Shown: positions 22,191 through 35,780 of the stretch, in pieces
How the letters are laid out: each line of letters opens with the position of its first letter
How positions within the stretch are numbered: position 1 is the first letter of the stretch
Source: Candidatus Parcubacteria bacterium
GTDB lineage: Bacteria > Patescibacteriota > Minisyncoccia > JAHIHE01 > JAGLIN01
DNA length: 41,387 nucleotides
Reading direction: 5' to 3'
Assembly: GCA_023140775.1 (NCBI GenBank)
Contig: JAGLLA010000014.1
Coordinates: 1 to 41,387 of the forward strand
The notes under the pieces: model-generated
Database searches by the model: none
Told to the model about the DNA's origin: nothing
Seen by the model: only the letters and a program-made list of their open reading frames with translations
Translations under genes and position numbers: made by a program

Positions 22191-23567
22191 ATGACTTTGA
22201 AATTATACGACACTTATACAAGAAAAATTAGAGATTTCAAATCAATCCAAAAAAATAAAATTACAATGTATAATTGTGGACCAACCGTTTATGATTTTGT
22301 GCATATTGGTAATTATCGAACATACCTGATGGCAGATTTCATTCGTCGAACTTTTGAATATTTCAATTATGATGTCAAACAAATCAAGAACATAACTGAT
22401 GTCGGTCATCTAACTCAAGATGACATTGAAGCTGGTGAAGATAAGATGCTCAAAGCTGCCAGGAGAGAAAATAAAAGCCCTTATGACATCGCCAGGTTTT
22501 ATGAAAATATTTTTCTGGCAGATGAAAAAAAACTAAACATACTCCCCGCCTACAAGTTCACTAGAGCAACAGAATATATCAACGAAATGATTGCCATGAT
22601 TGAGAAACTAATTGAAAAAGATTATGCCTATGAGTCAAACGGCAATGTTTTTTTTGCAGTTGGTAAATTTGAAAACTACGGAAAACTTTCTGGAAATACT
22701 TTGGAAAATTTGAAAACTGGTTCTAGACTTGAAGCTCATCCTGATAAACGAGATTCCCATGATTTTGCCCTGTGGCTCAAAGCCAGCCCCGACCATTTGA
22801 TGCAATGGGATTCTCCATGGAGCAAAGGTTATCCTGGTTGGCACATTGAATGCTCGGCAATGAGCACTGCAAATCTTGGAAATACAATTGACATTCATAC
22901 AGGCGGAGAAGATAATATTTTCCCTCATCACGAAGATGAAATTGCCCAATCTGAAGGTGCAACAGGAAAGAAGTTTGTAAATTATTGGCTCCACGGAAGA
23001 CATCTTTTGGTCGATGGGAAAAAAATGTCAAAGTCGAAAGGAAATTTCTATAAACTTAGCGATATCGAAAAAAAGGGTTTAGAACCTCTCTCATTTCGCT
23101 ATCTTTGCCTGACAACACATTTTCAATCTCAGCTGAATTTTACATGGCAAAGTCTAGAAGCTAGTCAAAGCGCGCTTAATAAACTCTTTGAATTTGTCAG
23201 GTCCGCCAAAGAAAAAAGAGGAAAGATCATCAAGGAATATGAAGCAAAATTTAATAATGCTTTAGAAAATAACCTAGATACACCTCGAGCCTTAGCTATA
23301 ACTTGGGAGATGATAAAGTCAAAAAATCATAGTATTGGTGATAAAAAAATTACACTGCTAAAGTTCGACGATTTCTTTGGATTTGATTTAAATACTGCGA
23401 CCATAGAAGACGAAATTCCTGCTGAGATTGAGAGATTAACAGAACAAAGAAATGAAGCAAGAAAAAACAAGGATTGGTCAATGTCAGATAAACTGAGAGC
23501 TGAGATCGAATCAAAGGGGTTTATTCTCAAGGACACGACTGAAAATACTACAGTTAAGCCAAAGTAG
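22191..23567 (+). CDS. cysS: Cysteinyl-tRNA synthetase
   Basis: 458 aa; MYNCGPTVYDFVHIGNYRTYLMAD, GWHIECSAMS, HHEDEIAQSEG, KMSKSKGNF. Confidence 0.98.
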   Translation: MTLKLYDTYTRKIRDFKSIQKNKITMYNCGPTVYDFVHIGNYRTYLMADFIRRTFEYFNYDVKQIKNITDVGHLTQDDIEAGEDKMLKAARRENKSPYDIARFYENIFLADEKKLNILPAYKFTRATEYINEMIAMIEKLIEKDYAYESNGNVFFAVGKFENYGKLSGNTLENLKTGSRLEAHPDKRDSHDFALWLKASPDHLMQWDSPWSKGYPGWHIECSAMSTANLGNTIDIHTGGEDNIFPHHEDEIAQSEGATGKKFVNYWLHGRHLLVDGKKMSKSKGNFYKLSDIEKKGLEPLSFRYLCLTTHFQSQLNFTWQSLEASQSALNKLFEFVRSAKEKRGKIIKEYEAKFNNALENNLDTPRALAITWEMIKSKNHSIGDKKITLLKFDDFFGFDLNTATIEDEIPAEIERLTEQRNEARKNKDWSMSDKLRAEIESKGFILKDTTENTTVKPK

Positions 23568-23703: not shown

Positions 23704-25080
23704 ATGACTAAAGAAAAATCCAAGAAAAATCCCGATTTTAACACTGACAAGCTACCTCCGCAAAATATTGAAGCAGAACAATCAGTTTTAGGGTCCTTAA
23801 TGATCGACAAAAATGCCATTATTAAAATTGGAGATTTACTTTCTGCTGAAGATTTCTACAAAAACAGTCACGGCAAGATCTACGAATCTATGATCTATCT
23901 ATATGAACATCATGAGCCGATCGATCTACTGAGCCTTTCCAATCGATTAAAAGACACCAAGGAGCTTGAAAAAATTGGTGGTCACAGCTTTCTTGCTTCT
24001 CTGGCTAATACTGTTCCGACTGCAGCAAACATCGTTCATTATGCAAAGATAGTCAGCAAAAAGGCAGTACTTCGAAAACTTATCGACAATGCTTCACAGA
24101 TAATTGTTGACGCATATAATGAGACAGAAGAAATCGAAAAAACTCTAGACAATGCCGAACAAAGAATTTTTTCCGTTTCCAAAAAACATATCAGACAGGA
24201 TTTTACTTCCATTAAACCAGTTCTGGAAGAAGCTTTTGATAGAATTGACGACATTCACAAAAACAAAGGAAAAATGAGAGGTATCCCTACAGGATTTACC
24301 GAACTTGATAACATACTTTCTGGACTTCAAGAATCAAATTTGATAATTATTGGCGCCAGACCTAGCGTCGGAAAATCATCTCTGGCAATGGACCTTGTCA
24401 GACATGCTGCCGTGCATGCCAAAATTCCAGTTGGAGTGTTTTCATTGGAAATGTCTAAGGGTGAAGTCATTGACAGACTTATCTGTTCACAGGCAAACAT
24501 TGATCTTTGGAAACTCAGAACCGGAAAGCTTTCCAGTATGGGAGAAAATGACGACTTTTCAAAAATTGGACATGCCATGGGAGTTCTTTCTGAGGCGCCA
24601 ATTTTTATCGATGATTCAGCCAGCTTAAATGTGATGTCCATGAGAACAATGGCCAGAAGATTGCAATCAGAACACGGTCTGGGCATGATTGTCATTGACT
24701 ATTTACAACTCATTGAAGGACGGGGCAGTTCAGATAATCGTGCCGTAGAAGTAAGTGAAATATCGAGATCGCTCAAAGGACTTGCCCGAGAGCTCAATGT
24801 ACCAATCATTGCTCTTTCTCAGCTATCTAGGGGTATCGAATCAAGAACCGATCAAAAACCAAAACTTTCAGATCTGAGAGAAAGTGGATCAATTGAGCAA
24901 GATGCTGATGTTGTCTTGTTTATCTACCGAGAAGACCGCGTGAACAGTGAAACTGAAAATAAAAACATCGCCGAAATCCTGATTGCCAAACACAGAAACG
25001 GTCCGATTGGCAGCGTTCAACTCTTCTTTAATCAGCAATGCACAAGTTTCCGAAACCTAGATCGAAAACATGAAAGTTAG
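23704..25080 (+). CDS. dnaB: Replicative DNA helicase DnaB
   Basis: 458 aa; LPPQNIEAEQSVLGSLMID, Walker A GARPSVGKSSLAMD, VIDYLQLIEG. Confidence 0.98.
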   Translation: MTKEKSKKNPDFNTDKLPPQNIEAEQSVLGSLMIDKNAIIKIGDLLSAEDFYKNSHGKIYESMIYLYEHHEPIDLLSLSNRLKDTKELEKIGGHSFLASLANTVPTAANIVHYAKIVSKKAVLRKLIDNASQIIVDAYNETEEIEKTLDNAEQRIFSVSKKHIRQDFTSIKPVLEEAFDRIDDIHKNKGKMRGIPTGFTELDNILSGLQESNLIIIGARPSVGKSSLAMDLVRHAAVHAKIPVGVFSLEMSKGEVIDRLICSQANIDLWKLRTGKLSSMGENDDFSKIGHAMGVLSEAPIFIDDSASLNVMSMRTMARRLQSEHGLGMIVIDYLQLIEGRGSSDNRAVEVSEISRSLKGLARELNVPIIALSQLSRGIESRTDQKPKLSDLRESGSIEQDADVVLFIYREDRVNSETENKNIAEILIAKHRNGPIGSVQLFFNQQCTSFRNLDRKHES

Positions 25081-31868: not shown

Positions 31869-34800
31869 TCATAATCTCTTAATTCCAACTATAATCACAT
31901 ATTCTCCTACTTTTATTTCTTTCACGGTATCAAATCTTTCACTTTCAATCTCGCTACTAAATTCAAGTTTTTTCGCTAAACACTCTTTTGCAATATAATC
32001 TTTCTGACTTGCAAAGATTTTCTTGACACCAGCACTTTCATCTTTGAAATTATATTCAATTTCGACCTCGTCATCTCGATTGAATTTTGCCTCTTTTCTC
32101 ATCACTTGAATGTGACGAATGACCTCTCTCGCTAATCCCTCATTTCGCAATTCATCAGTGATATTTAGATCAAAAGCAACTTTCAAACCACTATCCTCCT
32201 CAGACACCCAACTATCCTGCTCTTCTACCTTCTCTACAATTTTCACAATTTTCACATTTAGTTCGTCCTTGATCAATTCAATCAATTCACCACCTTCAAC
32301 TTTCATTTTTTTACTTTCAATTTGAAACTCGGCAATCGGCATTCTCACTTTAATTGAGTTTTTGGCGCGAATTGCCAGTCCCAGTGTCACTGCCTGCCTG
32401 ACAAAGCTCATTGCAGTACTGACCTGCTCGTTGATCATTTCACTATCCGCAATAGGAAAATTCTCGAGATGAACAGATTCTTTTCCAGTCAAATTGCGAT
32501 AAATCTCCTCAGATAGAAATGGCATAAATGGAGCAAGCAACTTGGAATATTCAACCAAAATATAATGTAAAGTTTGAAAAGCCAATTTTTTGTCTTTAAT
32601 GTCATCAGAAGCAAATCTTTTTCGAGAGCGACGAACATACCAATTTGAAAGCTTATCGACAAAGTCACGCAATGGCCTTGAAGCGCGAACGAGATCATAG
32701 CTCTCCATCTGTTCGTTCACTTCACCTGTCAAAATGTGAAGCTCTGAAACAATCCACCTGTCAAGCAAATTGTCTGATTTTATAAACAGACTGTCATTCT
32801 GGAGCGAAGTGATAGAATCCTGTGATTCATCTCTTTGAACCTTTCTTTTGTCGTCTTTATTTTTTTCAAGGATCTCTCTGATATCCTCATTGAACTCCAC
32901 ATTCATCACAAAGAATGAATAGGTGTTCCACAAAGTCAATACGAATTTCTTCAAGACTTCATCCACGCCTCTTTCTGAAAATCGCAAACTCTCCCCTTTC
33001 ATGATCGGAGAAGATAGGAGATAATACCGCAGGGCATCTGCCCCATATTTCTCGATCACCAAATTCGGCTCTGGGTAGTTCTTCAATCTTTTGCTCATTT
33101 TTTGTCCATCTTCTGCCAAGACCATGCCATTGACGATCACGTTTTGAAATGGCGCTTTGTCAAAAAGTGCCGTAGAAAGAACCATCAGAGTGTAGAACCA
33201 ACCACGAGTCTGATCAAGTCCTTCAGCAATGAAATCCGCAGGAAAGCTTTTTTCAAATTCAGCTTTATTTTCAAACGGATAGTGCCACTGGGCATAGGGC
33301 ATTGAACCTGATTCAAACCAGCAATCAAAAACATCACCTACGATCTTTGCCTTGCTTTGACACTTTGAACATTTAATCTCGAGCCTATCAATGTTTGGCT
33401 TGTGCAAATTAAATTCCTTGGCTTTACTGTCTACATAGAAAATATTACGTTCAGCATTATCCAAAGCACGCTCTAATCGAAAAACATCTTTGATGGAAAC
33501 CTCGCTCAAAACTCTGTTAAACATAGCATTGATTCCACTGTGAGAAACCACGAGAATGGTCTTACCTGGATATTTTTCAATGTTCTCCTTAATGAATTCT
33601 CTGACACGCTTTTCCACATCTTTCCTTGATTCACCATCACCACCAAAACGAAATTTATATTTGTCTTCATTATTCTCAAGATTCTGATATTTCTTGCACA
33701 AATCGTCTTCTTTTAAATCACTATAAGAAAAACCATTCCAAGAACCGAAATCATACTCTTTGATCAGATCACTTTCTTTGATTTCAAGATTTAGATGTTT
33801 TTTCACAATTTCTGCGGTCTCTTTGGTTCGCATGATCGGAGATGATATAAGAATATCAATTTTTTCATTTTTCATTTTTTCACTAACATTTTCAACTTGC
33901 TCTATTCCTTTTTCAGTCAAATGATATTTATTCAGATGTCCCGCCTTGATTTTTTTGACATTACTCTCGCTTTCTCCGTGTCTGAGAAAAATGAATTTGG
34001 TAATTTTTTCTTCCGTCTTTTCTCGCAGATCATCGATTGAATTGACCACCTCGATGTTTTCACAGTCAGTACATCTCCAAATTGGCAATGGAGCTCCCCA
34101 AAACCGGTTTCTGGAAATTGCCCAATCACGAGCATCTTCCAACCATTTCCCAAATCTCCCCTCTTTGATATATTCAGGAGTCCAATTCACTTGCTTGTTA
34201 TTTTCCACCATCTTCTCCTTGATCTCCGTCACCTTCACGAACCAAGAGCTGGTCGCATAATTGAGTAGTGGTGTATCACATCTCCAACAATGTGGATAGC
34301 TATGCTCATATTTTTTCTTCGAAAATAGTGAATTATTATGTGCTAAATATTTTATAATTTCAATATCAGTTTGCATGTGAGGATCTTTTTCGCCTTCTTT
34401 TCCTTTCGGCTTTACTTCTATGCCAACCCATTTACCTCGACGTTCACTCTCTTTTTTATCTTTTATTGCTTCCACAAATACTTCATAGTTTTTAATAGCT
34501 TCATCAGTCATCTCATTGTCCCATGAAGAATATGTAATATCTTCGCTTAATCTACCGTCCATTGAAACATGTTGAACGAAAGGTAAATTATATTTTTGCC
34601 CCAGTTTCATATCATCTTCTCCAAATGCCGGAGCGATATGAACAATTCCAGTTCCATCATCAGTTGTCACAAATTGATCTTTATCACTATCACTATAAAT
34701 TTTATATGCATTATCTTCGAAAGACATCATAGCTCCCATATCCTTAATATCTGGATTAGAAGCATTAACACTTTCATCTGATTCACTTTTTTTCAAATCT

Positions 34801-35780
34801 CTTGTTTGATGTTTGTTTTCTAAAAGCTTTTTCATATAACCGAATAGAGGATAATACTCAAGACCTACCAAATCCTTGCCATCGATTTCATTTAAAATCT
34901 CAAACTCTTCATCTTTTAGAATTTCCTCGGCTTGATCTTTTGCTAAAATAAATTTTCCACTTTTTCCCTTAATACTAAATACTAAATACTTAATACTAAA
35001 ACCCACCGCAAGCGCCACATTCCCAGGAAGAGTCCATGGAGTCGTCGTCCATGCCAAAACAAATACCTCTTCATCCTGAACTGCACTGTCATCCTGAACT
35101 TGATTCAGGATCTTTTGTCTTAGCACCTTAACACTCGCTTTTTTCAACTTGAATTTCACAGTCGCCGACAAGTCTGTGATGTCTTTGTATCCTTGCGTCA
35201 CTTCAAAATTGGAAAGCGTGGTCTCGCATCTCGGACAAATATGCATTGCTTTATGCCCTTCATAGACAAGTCCTTTTTTGAAAAGCTCAGAAAAAACCCA
35301 CCAAATGCTTTCCGTATATTTCCAATCCATTGTGCGATAATCATTTTCCATATCCACCCATCTGCCAATTCGAGGAATGAATTTTTTCCAATCTTCGGCA
35401 TACCTGAGAACGGAATTGTGACAAGCATCATTGAAATTCTCAACACCCCATTTTTCAATGTCTTGCTTGTTCTTGATGCCGTGTTCTTTTTCAACCAAAT
35501 TCTCAACAGGCAAGCCATGACAATCCCAACCCCACCTGCGATTGACTTTCTTGCCCTTCATTGTTTGAAATCGTGGGACAACATCCTTGATCAAGCTGGC
35601 CACAACATGCCCATAATGAGGAAGCCCTGTGGCAAACGGAGGTCCGTCAAAAAAACTATATGTCTTTTCATCTTCCCTGTTTTCCACAGATCTTTCAAAT
35701 GTTTGATTCTCTTTCCAGTTATTCATAATTTCCTTTTCCATTTCAGGAAAGTTCTGTCGGGGATTCACCTTTTTAAACAT
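31869..35780 (-). CDS. ileS: Isoleucyl-tRNA synthetase with inserted histidine phosphatase domain
   Basis: 1303 aa; HIGH-type PHYGHVVASL, KMSKRLKNYPEP, AWTTTPWTLPGNVALAVG; RHG phosphatase domain at about 33420-34010. Confidence 0.97.
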   Translation of the reverse strand: MFKKVNPRQNFPEMEKEIMNNWKENQTFERSVENREDEKTYSFFDGPPFATGLPHYGHVVASLIKDVVPRFQTMKGKKVNRRWGWDCHGLPVENLVEKEHGIKNKQDIEKWGVENFNDACHNSVLRYAEDWKKFIPRIGRWVDMENDYRTMDWKYTESIWWVFSELFKKGLVYEGHKAMHICPRCETTLSNFEVTQGYKDITDLSATVKFKLKKASVKVLRQKILNQVQDDSAVQDEEVFVLAWTTTPWTLPGNVALAVGFSIKYLVFSIKGKSGKFILAKDQAEEILKDEEFEILNEIDGKDLVGLEYYPLFGYMKKLLENKHQTRDLKKSESDESVNASNPDIKDMGAMMSFEDNAYKIYSDSDKDQFVTTDDGTGIVHIAPAFGEDDMKLGQKYNLPFVQHVSMDGRLSEDITYSSWDNEMTDEAIKNYEVFVEAIKDKKESERRGKWVGIEVKPKGKEGEKDPHMQTDIEIIKYLAHNNSLFSKKKYEHSYPHCWRCDTPLLNYATSSWFVKVTEIKEKMVENNKQVNWTPEYIKEGRFGKWLEDARDWAISRNRFWGAPLPIWRCTDCENIEVVNSIDDLREKTEEKITKFIFLRHGESESNVKKIKAGHLNKYHLTEKGIEQVENVSEKMKNEKIDILISSPIMRTKETAEIVKKHLNLEIKESDLIKEYDFGSWNGFSYSDLKEDDLCKKYQNLENNEDKYKFRFGGDGESRKDVEKRVREFIKENIEKYPGKTILVVSHSGINAMFNRVLSEVSIKDVFRLERALDNAERNIFYVDSKAKEFNLHKPNIDRLEIKCSKCQSKAKIVGDVFDCWFESGSMPYAQWHYPFENKAEFEKSFPADFIAEGLDQTRGWFYTLMVLSTALFDKAPFQNVIVNGMVLAEDGQKMSKRLKNYPEPNLVIEKYGADALRYYLLSSPIMKGESLRFSERGVDEVLKKFVLTLWNTYSFFVMNVEFNEDIREILEKNKDDKRKVQRDESQDSITSLQNDSLFIKSDNLLDRWIVSELHILTGEVNEQMESYDLVRASRPLRDFVDKLSNWYVRRSRKRFASDDIKDKKLAFQTLHYILVEYSKLLAPFMPFLSEEIYRNLTGKESVHLENFPIADSEMINEQVSTAMSFVRQAVTLGLAIRAKNSIKVRMPIAEFQIESKKMKVEGGELIELIKDELNVKIVKIVEKVEEQDSWVSEEDSGLKVAFDLNITDELRNEGLAREVIRHIQVMRKEAKFNRDDEVEIEYNFKDESAGVKKIFASQKDYIAKECLAKKLEFSSEIESERFDTVKEIKVGEYVIIVGIKRL
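35087..35113. repeat. Palindromic repeat embedded in ileS, encoding KILNQVQDDS
   Basis: tgtcatcctgaacttgattcaggatct; CCTGAA-cttga-TTCAGG. Confidence 0.7.

Follow-up and report, generated by a model that had tools for sequence, protein, structure and literature searches.

The isoleucyl-tRNA synthetase and its inserted domain

The window, by which we mean the whole stretch of 41,387 nucleotides that was analyzed, contains on its minus strand a single open frame (31869-35780) of 1303 aa with no internal stop. By its signatures this is a type-2 isoleucyl-tRNA synthetase (IleRS): the whole protein scores 881.7 bits with the TIGR00392 ileS model (cut-off 621.4 bits), and the motifs GLPHYGH and KMSKR as well as the anticodon-binding domain PF08264 are all present. 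According to Pfam, its tRNA-synt_1 domain is split in two by a histidine phosphatase (HP) domain, PF00300 His_Phos_1. The following features can be recognized in the gene:

31869..35780, minus strand: ileS, 1303 aa, the type-2 IleRS that carries the phosphatase insert (Pfam, TIGR00392, Foldseek)
35607..35627, minus strand: HIGH-type motif GLPHYGH (PHYGH; within aa 52-58), from motif reading
34062..34073, minus strand: C570/C573, first of the two Cys pairs that flank the insert (sequence; putative zinc binding)
33411..33998, minus strand: HP domain of superfamily branch 1, aa ~595-790 (PF00300, E=2.1e-38; PDB phosphatases by sequence and fold)
33975..33983, minus strand: catalytic R600-H601-G602, with His601 as predicted phosphate acceptor (every scored insert keeps R and H)
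33828..33830, minus strand: second catalytic Arg, R651 (66/66 inserts)
33756..33758, minus strand: catalytic Glu, E675, predicted general acid (64 Glu and 2 Asp of 66)
33540..33542, minus strand: second catalytic His, H747 (66/66 inserts)
33360..33371, minus strand: C804/C807, second of these Cys pairs (sequence)
33087..33101, minus strand: KMSKR motif, aa 894-898, from motif reading
32337..32762, minus strand: anticodon-binding domain, aa 1007-1148 (Pfam PF08264)

The insert sits in frame in the second Cys-pair loop of the synthetase (C570/C573...C804/C807), where according to sequence alignment it replaces a linker of ~7 residues in the solved type-2 IleRS 8c8u (residues 478-484). The Pfam match covers aa 597-791 with 132.4 bits against a gathering score of 21.7 bits (E=2.1e-38), and the catalytic set R600, H601, R651, E675, and H747 is complete.

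An AlphaFold2 model of aa 1-1190, built from 38 sequences, has a mean pLDDT of 85.2 and a pTM of 0.82, with the insert mostly at ~90-97; modelled alone with AlphaFold, the insert reaches a pLDDT of 96.8. Foldseek places the synthetase model with the type-2 IleRS 8c8v, and also with 7d5c and 1ile (TMt 0.93 for 1ile). The insert model matches solved HPs in the PDB with TMq values of 0.75-0.87, the best being alpha-ribazole phosphatase, PspA and PhoE (TMq 0.81-0.87), and a profile search of the PDB with the insert likewise gave PspA at the top, followed by PhoE and CobC. The inserted HP appears to be a complete and working phosphatase.

These results agree with the original prediction in most of its particulars. 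It had proposed an HP domain within an IleRS, which the Pfam and TIGR00392 matches (E=2.1e-38 and 881.7 bits) bear out, and its boundaries (33420-34010) lie within about 12 bases of those found here (33411-33998). The HP fold that it named is recovered by Pfam, by the insert model and by the fold matches to solved HPs, and structure prediction, which it had suggested as a check for the full protein and which covered aa 1-1190 and the insert alone, returned a type-2 IleRS fold with an HP fold. It was also right that the catalytic RHG, second Arg, Glu and second His are all there (R600-H601-G602, R651, E675, H747), that the insertion falls between two CxxC pairs (C570/C573 and C804/C807) and that the HIGH and KMSK motifs are intact (PHYGH and KMSKR, 894-898).

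The window genome is a draft of 49 contigs and 70% completeness, in which only one full IleRS was found; the weaker IleRS matches belong to a valyl-tRNA synthetase (ValRS). Low-complexity stretches of the IleRS (window positions 34710-35150 and 32775-32870, e.g., KILNQVQDDSAVQDE near aa 217-231) have low model confidence, and no second full copy was found within the window. Elsewhere in the window, two adjacent plus-strand ORFs (22191-23567 and 23704-25080) are exactly 458 aa each and might represent a tandem duplication.

Distribution, conservation and descent of the insert

The insert was scored by reading in 54 genomes of the same class or nearer, including the window's own. Of these Patescibacteria genomes 50 could be scored and four could not; 41 of the 50 have an IleRS with the insert, and the nine without it are G009, G014, G020, G028, G030, G033, G034, G042, and G046. 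In 22 of the 41 carriers the insert is the sole HP domain of the genome. Insert-less genomes can stand beside close relatives that carry it (G009 beside G005, G014 beside G017), and no HP domain of any kind was found in G009, G014, G020, G042, and G046; neither charging nor the cell therefore strictly needs the HP.

A second sample of 153 genomes from the phylum comprised nine of the window's class together with others (~139 scored from other classes). The insert was present in 9/9 of the former and in about 14 of the ~139 latter, including G097, where it is at a different site. Named carriers among the best 80 of 582 candidate IleRS stretches were Paceibacterota, Yanofskybacteria, Nomurabacteria, and Peregrinibacteria/Peribacteria, with a match extending beyond the IleRS flank only in the top 19 of these 80. 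No fused HP-IleRS was seen among the matches listed for 301 Chloroflexota, in which standalone HP genes are common. One carrier record (L036) is titled Spirochaetia. Its genome measures a mere 0.4 Mb, however, and its IleRS host clusters with Patescibacteria, as does its HP, so the title is probably wrong and a Spirochaete origin was rejected. The HP-in-IleRS arrangement is common and ancient in the phylum and has arisen more than once.

In a draft genome of this kind the insert could be imagined to stem from faulty assembly or annotation, or from a selfish element that is spliced out. However, dozens of independent genomes, drawn from two collections, show the same junctions, the catalytic residues are conserved and a second IleRS is absent, which makes such an origin extremely improbable. 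Mis-assembly, one of the things named in the original prediction as refuting it, is ruled out by these dozens of genomes, as is a chance origin of the insert, and its expectation that uncharacterized genomes might carry the architecture was correct.

Since the first same-class inserts were collected through their IleRS host, they had not been selected for their catalytic residues. Equivalents of R600 and H601 are nevertheless present in all 65 IleRS inserts covering these positions, those of R651 and H747 in 66/66, and E675 corresponds to Glu in 64/66 and Asp in 2/66. The R/H/R/H set is also invariant in 60 further aligned HP domains of the same family that are 22-58% identical to that of the window, which places the insert far beyond chance. 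Close pairs of inserts gave dN/dS values of about 0.04-0.14, which are rough because dS is near or beyond saturation. Together these data indicate that the insert is maintained by purifying selection.

A tree of 127 HP domains places the synthetase-borne domains in at least three lineages. One branch (SH-aLRT 89) holds 63 IleRS inserts, a free gene from G034, the off-site IleRS domain of G097 and one ValRS domain, and a second branch (89) holds the second domains of tandem IleRS inserts, the IleRS insert of G016 and a pair of ValRS domains from G097. The ValRS domains of G007 and G016 group with free genes of a VHG type. These groupings imply, with moderate support, at least three recruitments. 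Tandem doubling of the HP was found in both synthetases. The VHG-type relatives (L115, L116, and L118-L122) occur both inside ValRS and as free genes of ~185 aa; as VHG replaces RHG in them, the first catalytic Arg is missing.

On an IleRS tree made with the insert columns left out, the presence of the insert needs 12 changes, 10 of them forced by the starred branches. Rows with the HP type of the window form one branch of the HP tree (90/96), but forcing this same grouping on the host data costs 601 log-likelihood units (p-AU 7e-73). Of the host groupings tested on the HP data, two were rejected (p 5e-5 and 3e-7) and two were not (p 0.08 and 0.15). All these p-values are descriptive, as the groups were picked after the trees had been seen. 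The HP and host trees conflict, and the tests point to exchange of the HP domain between ileS genes. G034 has the gene order argS, a free HP ORF of 192 codons and an insert-less ileS, and the stop codon of the HP overlaps the start of ileS by 7 bases (ATGCTAA). As this free HP groups with the IleRS inserts, it looks like an insert that has reverted to a separate gene.

Other inserts at the loop and other HP fusions

ValRS also carries HP domains, in the homologous loop, and among the matches listed for the relatives and the phylum sample the very large ORFs fused to an HP were IleRS or ValRS wherever they could be classified. The ValRS of the window genome (G000:C23, L117:1224-4547, minus strand, 1108 aa) instead has in this loop a serine hydrolase resembling YdeN and RBBP9 (PF06821; YdeN E=2e-12), and long PF06821 ORFs of a similar kind are found in several relatives. 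In G016 the ValRS has an HP and a YdeN/RBBP9-like serine hydrolase together. Since the loop tolerates various inserts, an argument from position alone is weakened.

Further stretches were seen at the same IleRS loop: one of ~120 aa and of unknown kind in L154, L155, L156, and L157 (one family, f46), and a repeat-like one (VIASGAKQSPASK...) in the G075 IleRS (L158:1003-4464). The IleRS of G097 (L149:1638-5990) has a GNAT and an HP domain C-terminal to the DCWFESG motif, outside the Cys-pair interval. Three further HP fusions (L151, L152, and L153), named from sequence, join a 2-hydroxyacid dehydrogenase to an HP or a phosphoglycerate-mutase-like HP to a pyruvate kinase.

Possible roles and relation to known enzymes

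We tentatively favor, at somewhat less than even confidence, a bifunctional synthetase-phosphatase whose HP acts in cis on something tied to the charging of Ile or Val. By analogy with the HP family, His601 would accept the phosphoryl group and Glu675 would protonate the leaving group, while Arg600, Arg651, and His747 would hold the phosphate until water frees it from the enzyme. Less certain than these catalytic steps is the target, which would be linked to isoleucine charging, or in the ValRS versions to valine, and could be a phosphate-bearing by-product, a phosphate carried by the synthetase or its tRNA, or an inhibitor mimicking the aminoacyl-adenylate. Seated in this loop, the phosphatase would stay near the synthetase body. 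The original prediction had likewise proposed that aminoacylation could be coupled to hydrolysis of a phosphorylated by-product. The repeated recruitment of HP domains to IleRS and ValRS favors such a link indirectly; it is weakened by sister lineages that have lost the insert cleanly and by the unrelated inserts at the same loop, both of which would also fit a permissive loop. The complete and conserved catalytic set, the low dN/dS, the tandem doubling in both synthetases, the free G034 gene overlapping ileS and the 22 carriers with no other HP domain also speak for the bifunctional synthetase-phosphatase.

We prefer the charging-linked phosphatase only narrowly to its closest competitor. The HP might be a housekeeping enzyme, a general phosphatase of small metabolites, parked where an essential and always expressed protein exposes a loop to solvent, with a benefit of dosage only and a substrate unrelated to charging; this is a real possibility. 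It fits the range of guests that the loop accepts (HP, the ValRS serine hydrolase, the ~120-aa domain of L154-L157 and the repeat-like stretch of L158), the HP often being the only one of its genome, the joining of HPs to 2-hydroxyacid dehydrogenases and pyruvate kinase as well, and the disagreement of HP and host trees, from which it follows that the module moves on its own. It does not readily explain why recruitment repeatedly involved IleRS or ValRS and no other aminoacyl-tRNA synthetase among the matches listed, and serine and glycolytic roles look unlikely for such an enzyme.

The HP could also stand in for a metabolic enzyme that the cell lacks, such as alpha-ribazole phosphatase, phosphoserine phosphatase or phosphoglycerate mutase, which we consider very unlikely even though its nearest solved relatives are PspA, PhoE and CobC. 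Against a mutase role, the window genome encodes PF01676 proteins of the size of iPGM, and a search of 54 genomes gave PF01676 matches in 48. Nor is the HP likely to act as the phosphoserine phosphatase of serine synthesis, since none of the 54 genomes has SerC, compared with matches in 11 of 14 control genomes. The HP moreover scores below the curated cut-offs for CobC alpha-ribazole phosphatase (TIGR03162, 110.1 vs 162.9 bits), PspA phosphoserine phosphatase (NF045917, 99.6 vs 350 bits) and 2,3-BPG-dependent phosphoglycerate mutase (TIGR01258, 36.2 vs 81.7 bits; NF038349, 99.3 vs 225 bits). The same holds for SixA phosphohistidine phosphatase (TIGR00249, 33.3 vs 74.5 bits), so that every curated HP-subfamily cut-off tested was missed and membership in the named HP subfamilies was rejected.

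The relatives of HPs include protein phosphatases such as SixA, and a regulatory enzyme that dephosphorylates the synthetase itself (e.g., at the serine of KMSKR) or its tRNA would suit both this kinship and the tethering in cis. With the SixA model missed and small-molecule phosphatases as the nearest solved relatives, we regard it as quite unlikely. A more far-reaching idea is unlikely too: the loop of Patescibacteria IleRS and ValRS would be a swappable cassette site, in which exchangeable HPs of several lineages, an RBBP9/YdeN-like serine hydrolase and the uncharacterized domain clear the synthetase of by-products or inhibitors that resemble aminoacyl-nucleotides. If true, this would represent a previously unknown built-in protection or proofreading.

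Aminoacyl-tRNA synthetases rank among the most conserved enzymes. Repeated recruitment, retention across classes, exchange between ileS genes and clean losses suggest here that selection connects a phosphatase with Ile/Val charging. The uncultured Patescibacteria also gain a concrete, expressible enzyme for which a change of one residue (H601A) provides the control.

Compared with the IleRS2 of Priestia megaterium (8c8v) and the Thermus thermophilus enzyme (1ile), the catalytic, editing and anticodon-binding parts align throughout, with a TM-score of 0.93 over 1ile; yet solved type-2 IleRS have a short linker where the window IleRS has ~200 phosphatase residues. PspA (4ij5), PhoE (1h2e/1ebb) and CobC (6nru, 6e4b) share fold, size and catalytic residues with the insert (20-29% identity, TMq 0.81-0.87), but they are free-standing, whereas the HP of the window is embedded and falls below the PspA and CobC curated cut-offs. 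No published account of an HP inside IleRS or ValRS was found in the open-access literature, consistent with the original statement that no characterized IleRS has this architecture; novelty is provisional, as the search covered open-licence papers only.

A precedent for an extra enzyme domain on IleRS is NF040702 (ileS_w_GNAT), which has an N-acetyltransferase, but the window IleRS reaches only 275.6 bits with this model (cut-off 1999) and has no GNAT match. Microcin C-type aminoacyl-nucleotide antibiotics are detoxified by the MccE GNAT, the MccF peptidase and the MccH phosphoramidase (PMC7157772). These enzymes are free or part of antibiotic clusters and are directed against AspRS inhibitors, and MccH belongs to the HIT proteins instead of the HPs. 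Similar kinds of enzyme, a GNAT, a serine hydrolase and a phosphate-active enzyme, are also found inside the IleRS and ValRS of CPR bacteria, which gives only a loose analogy between the two systems.
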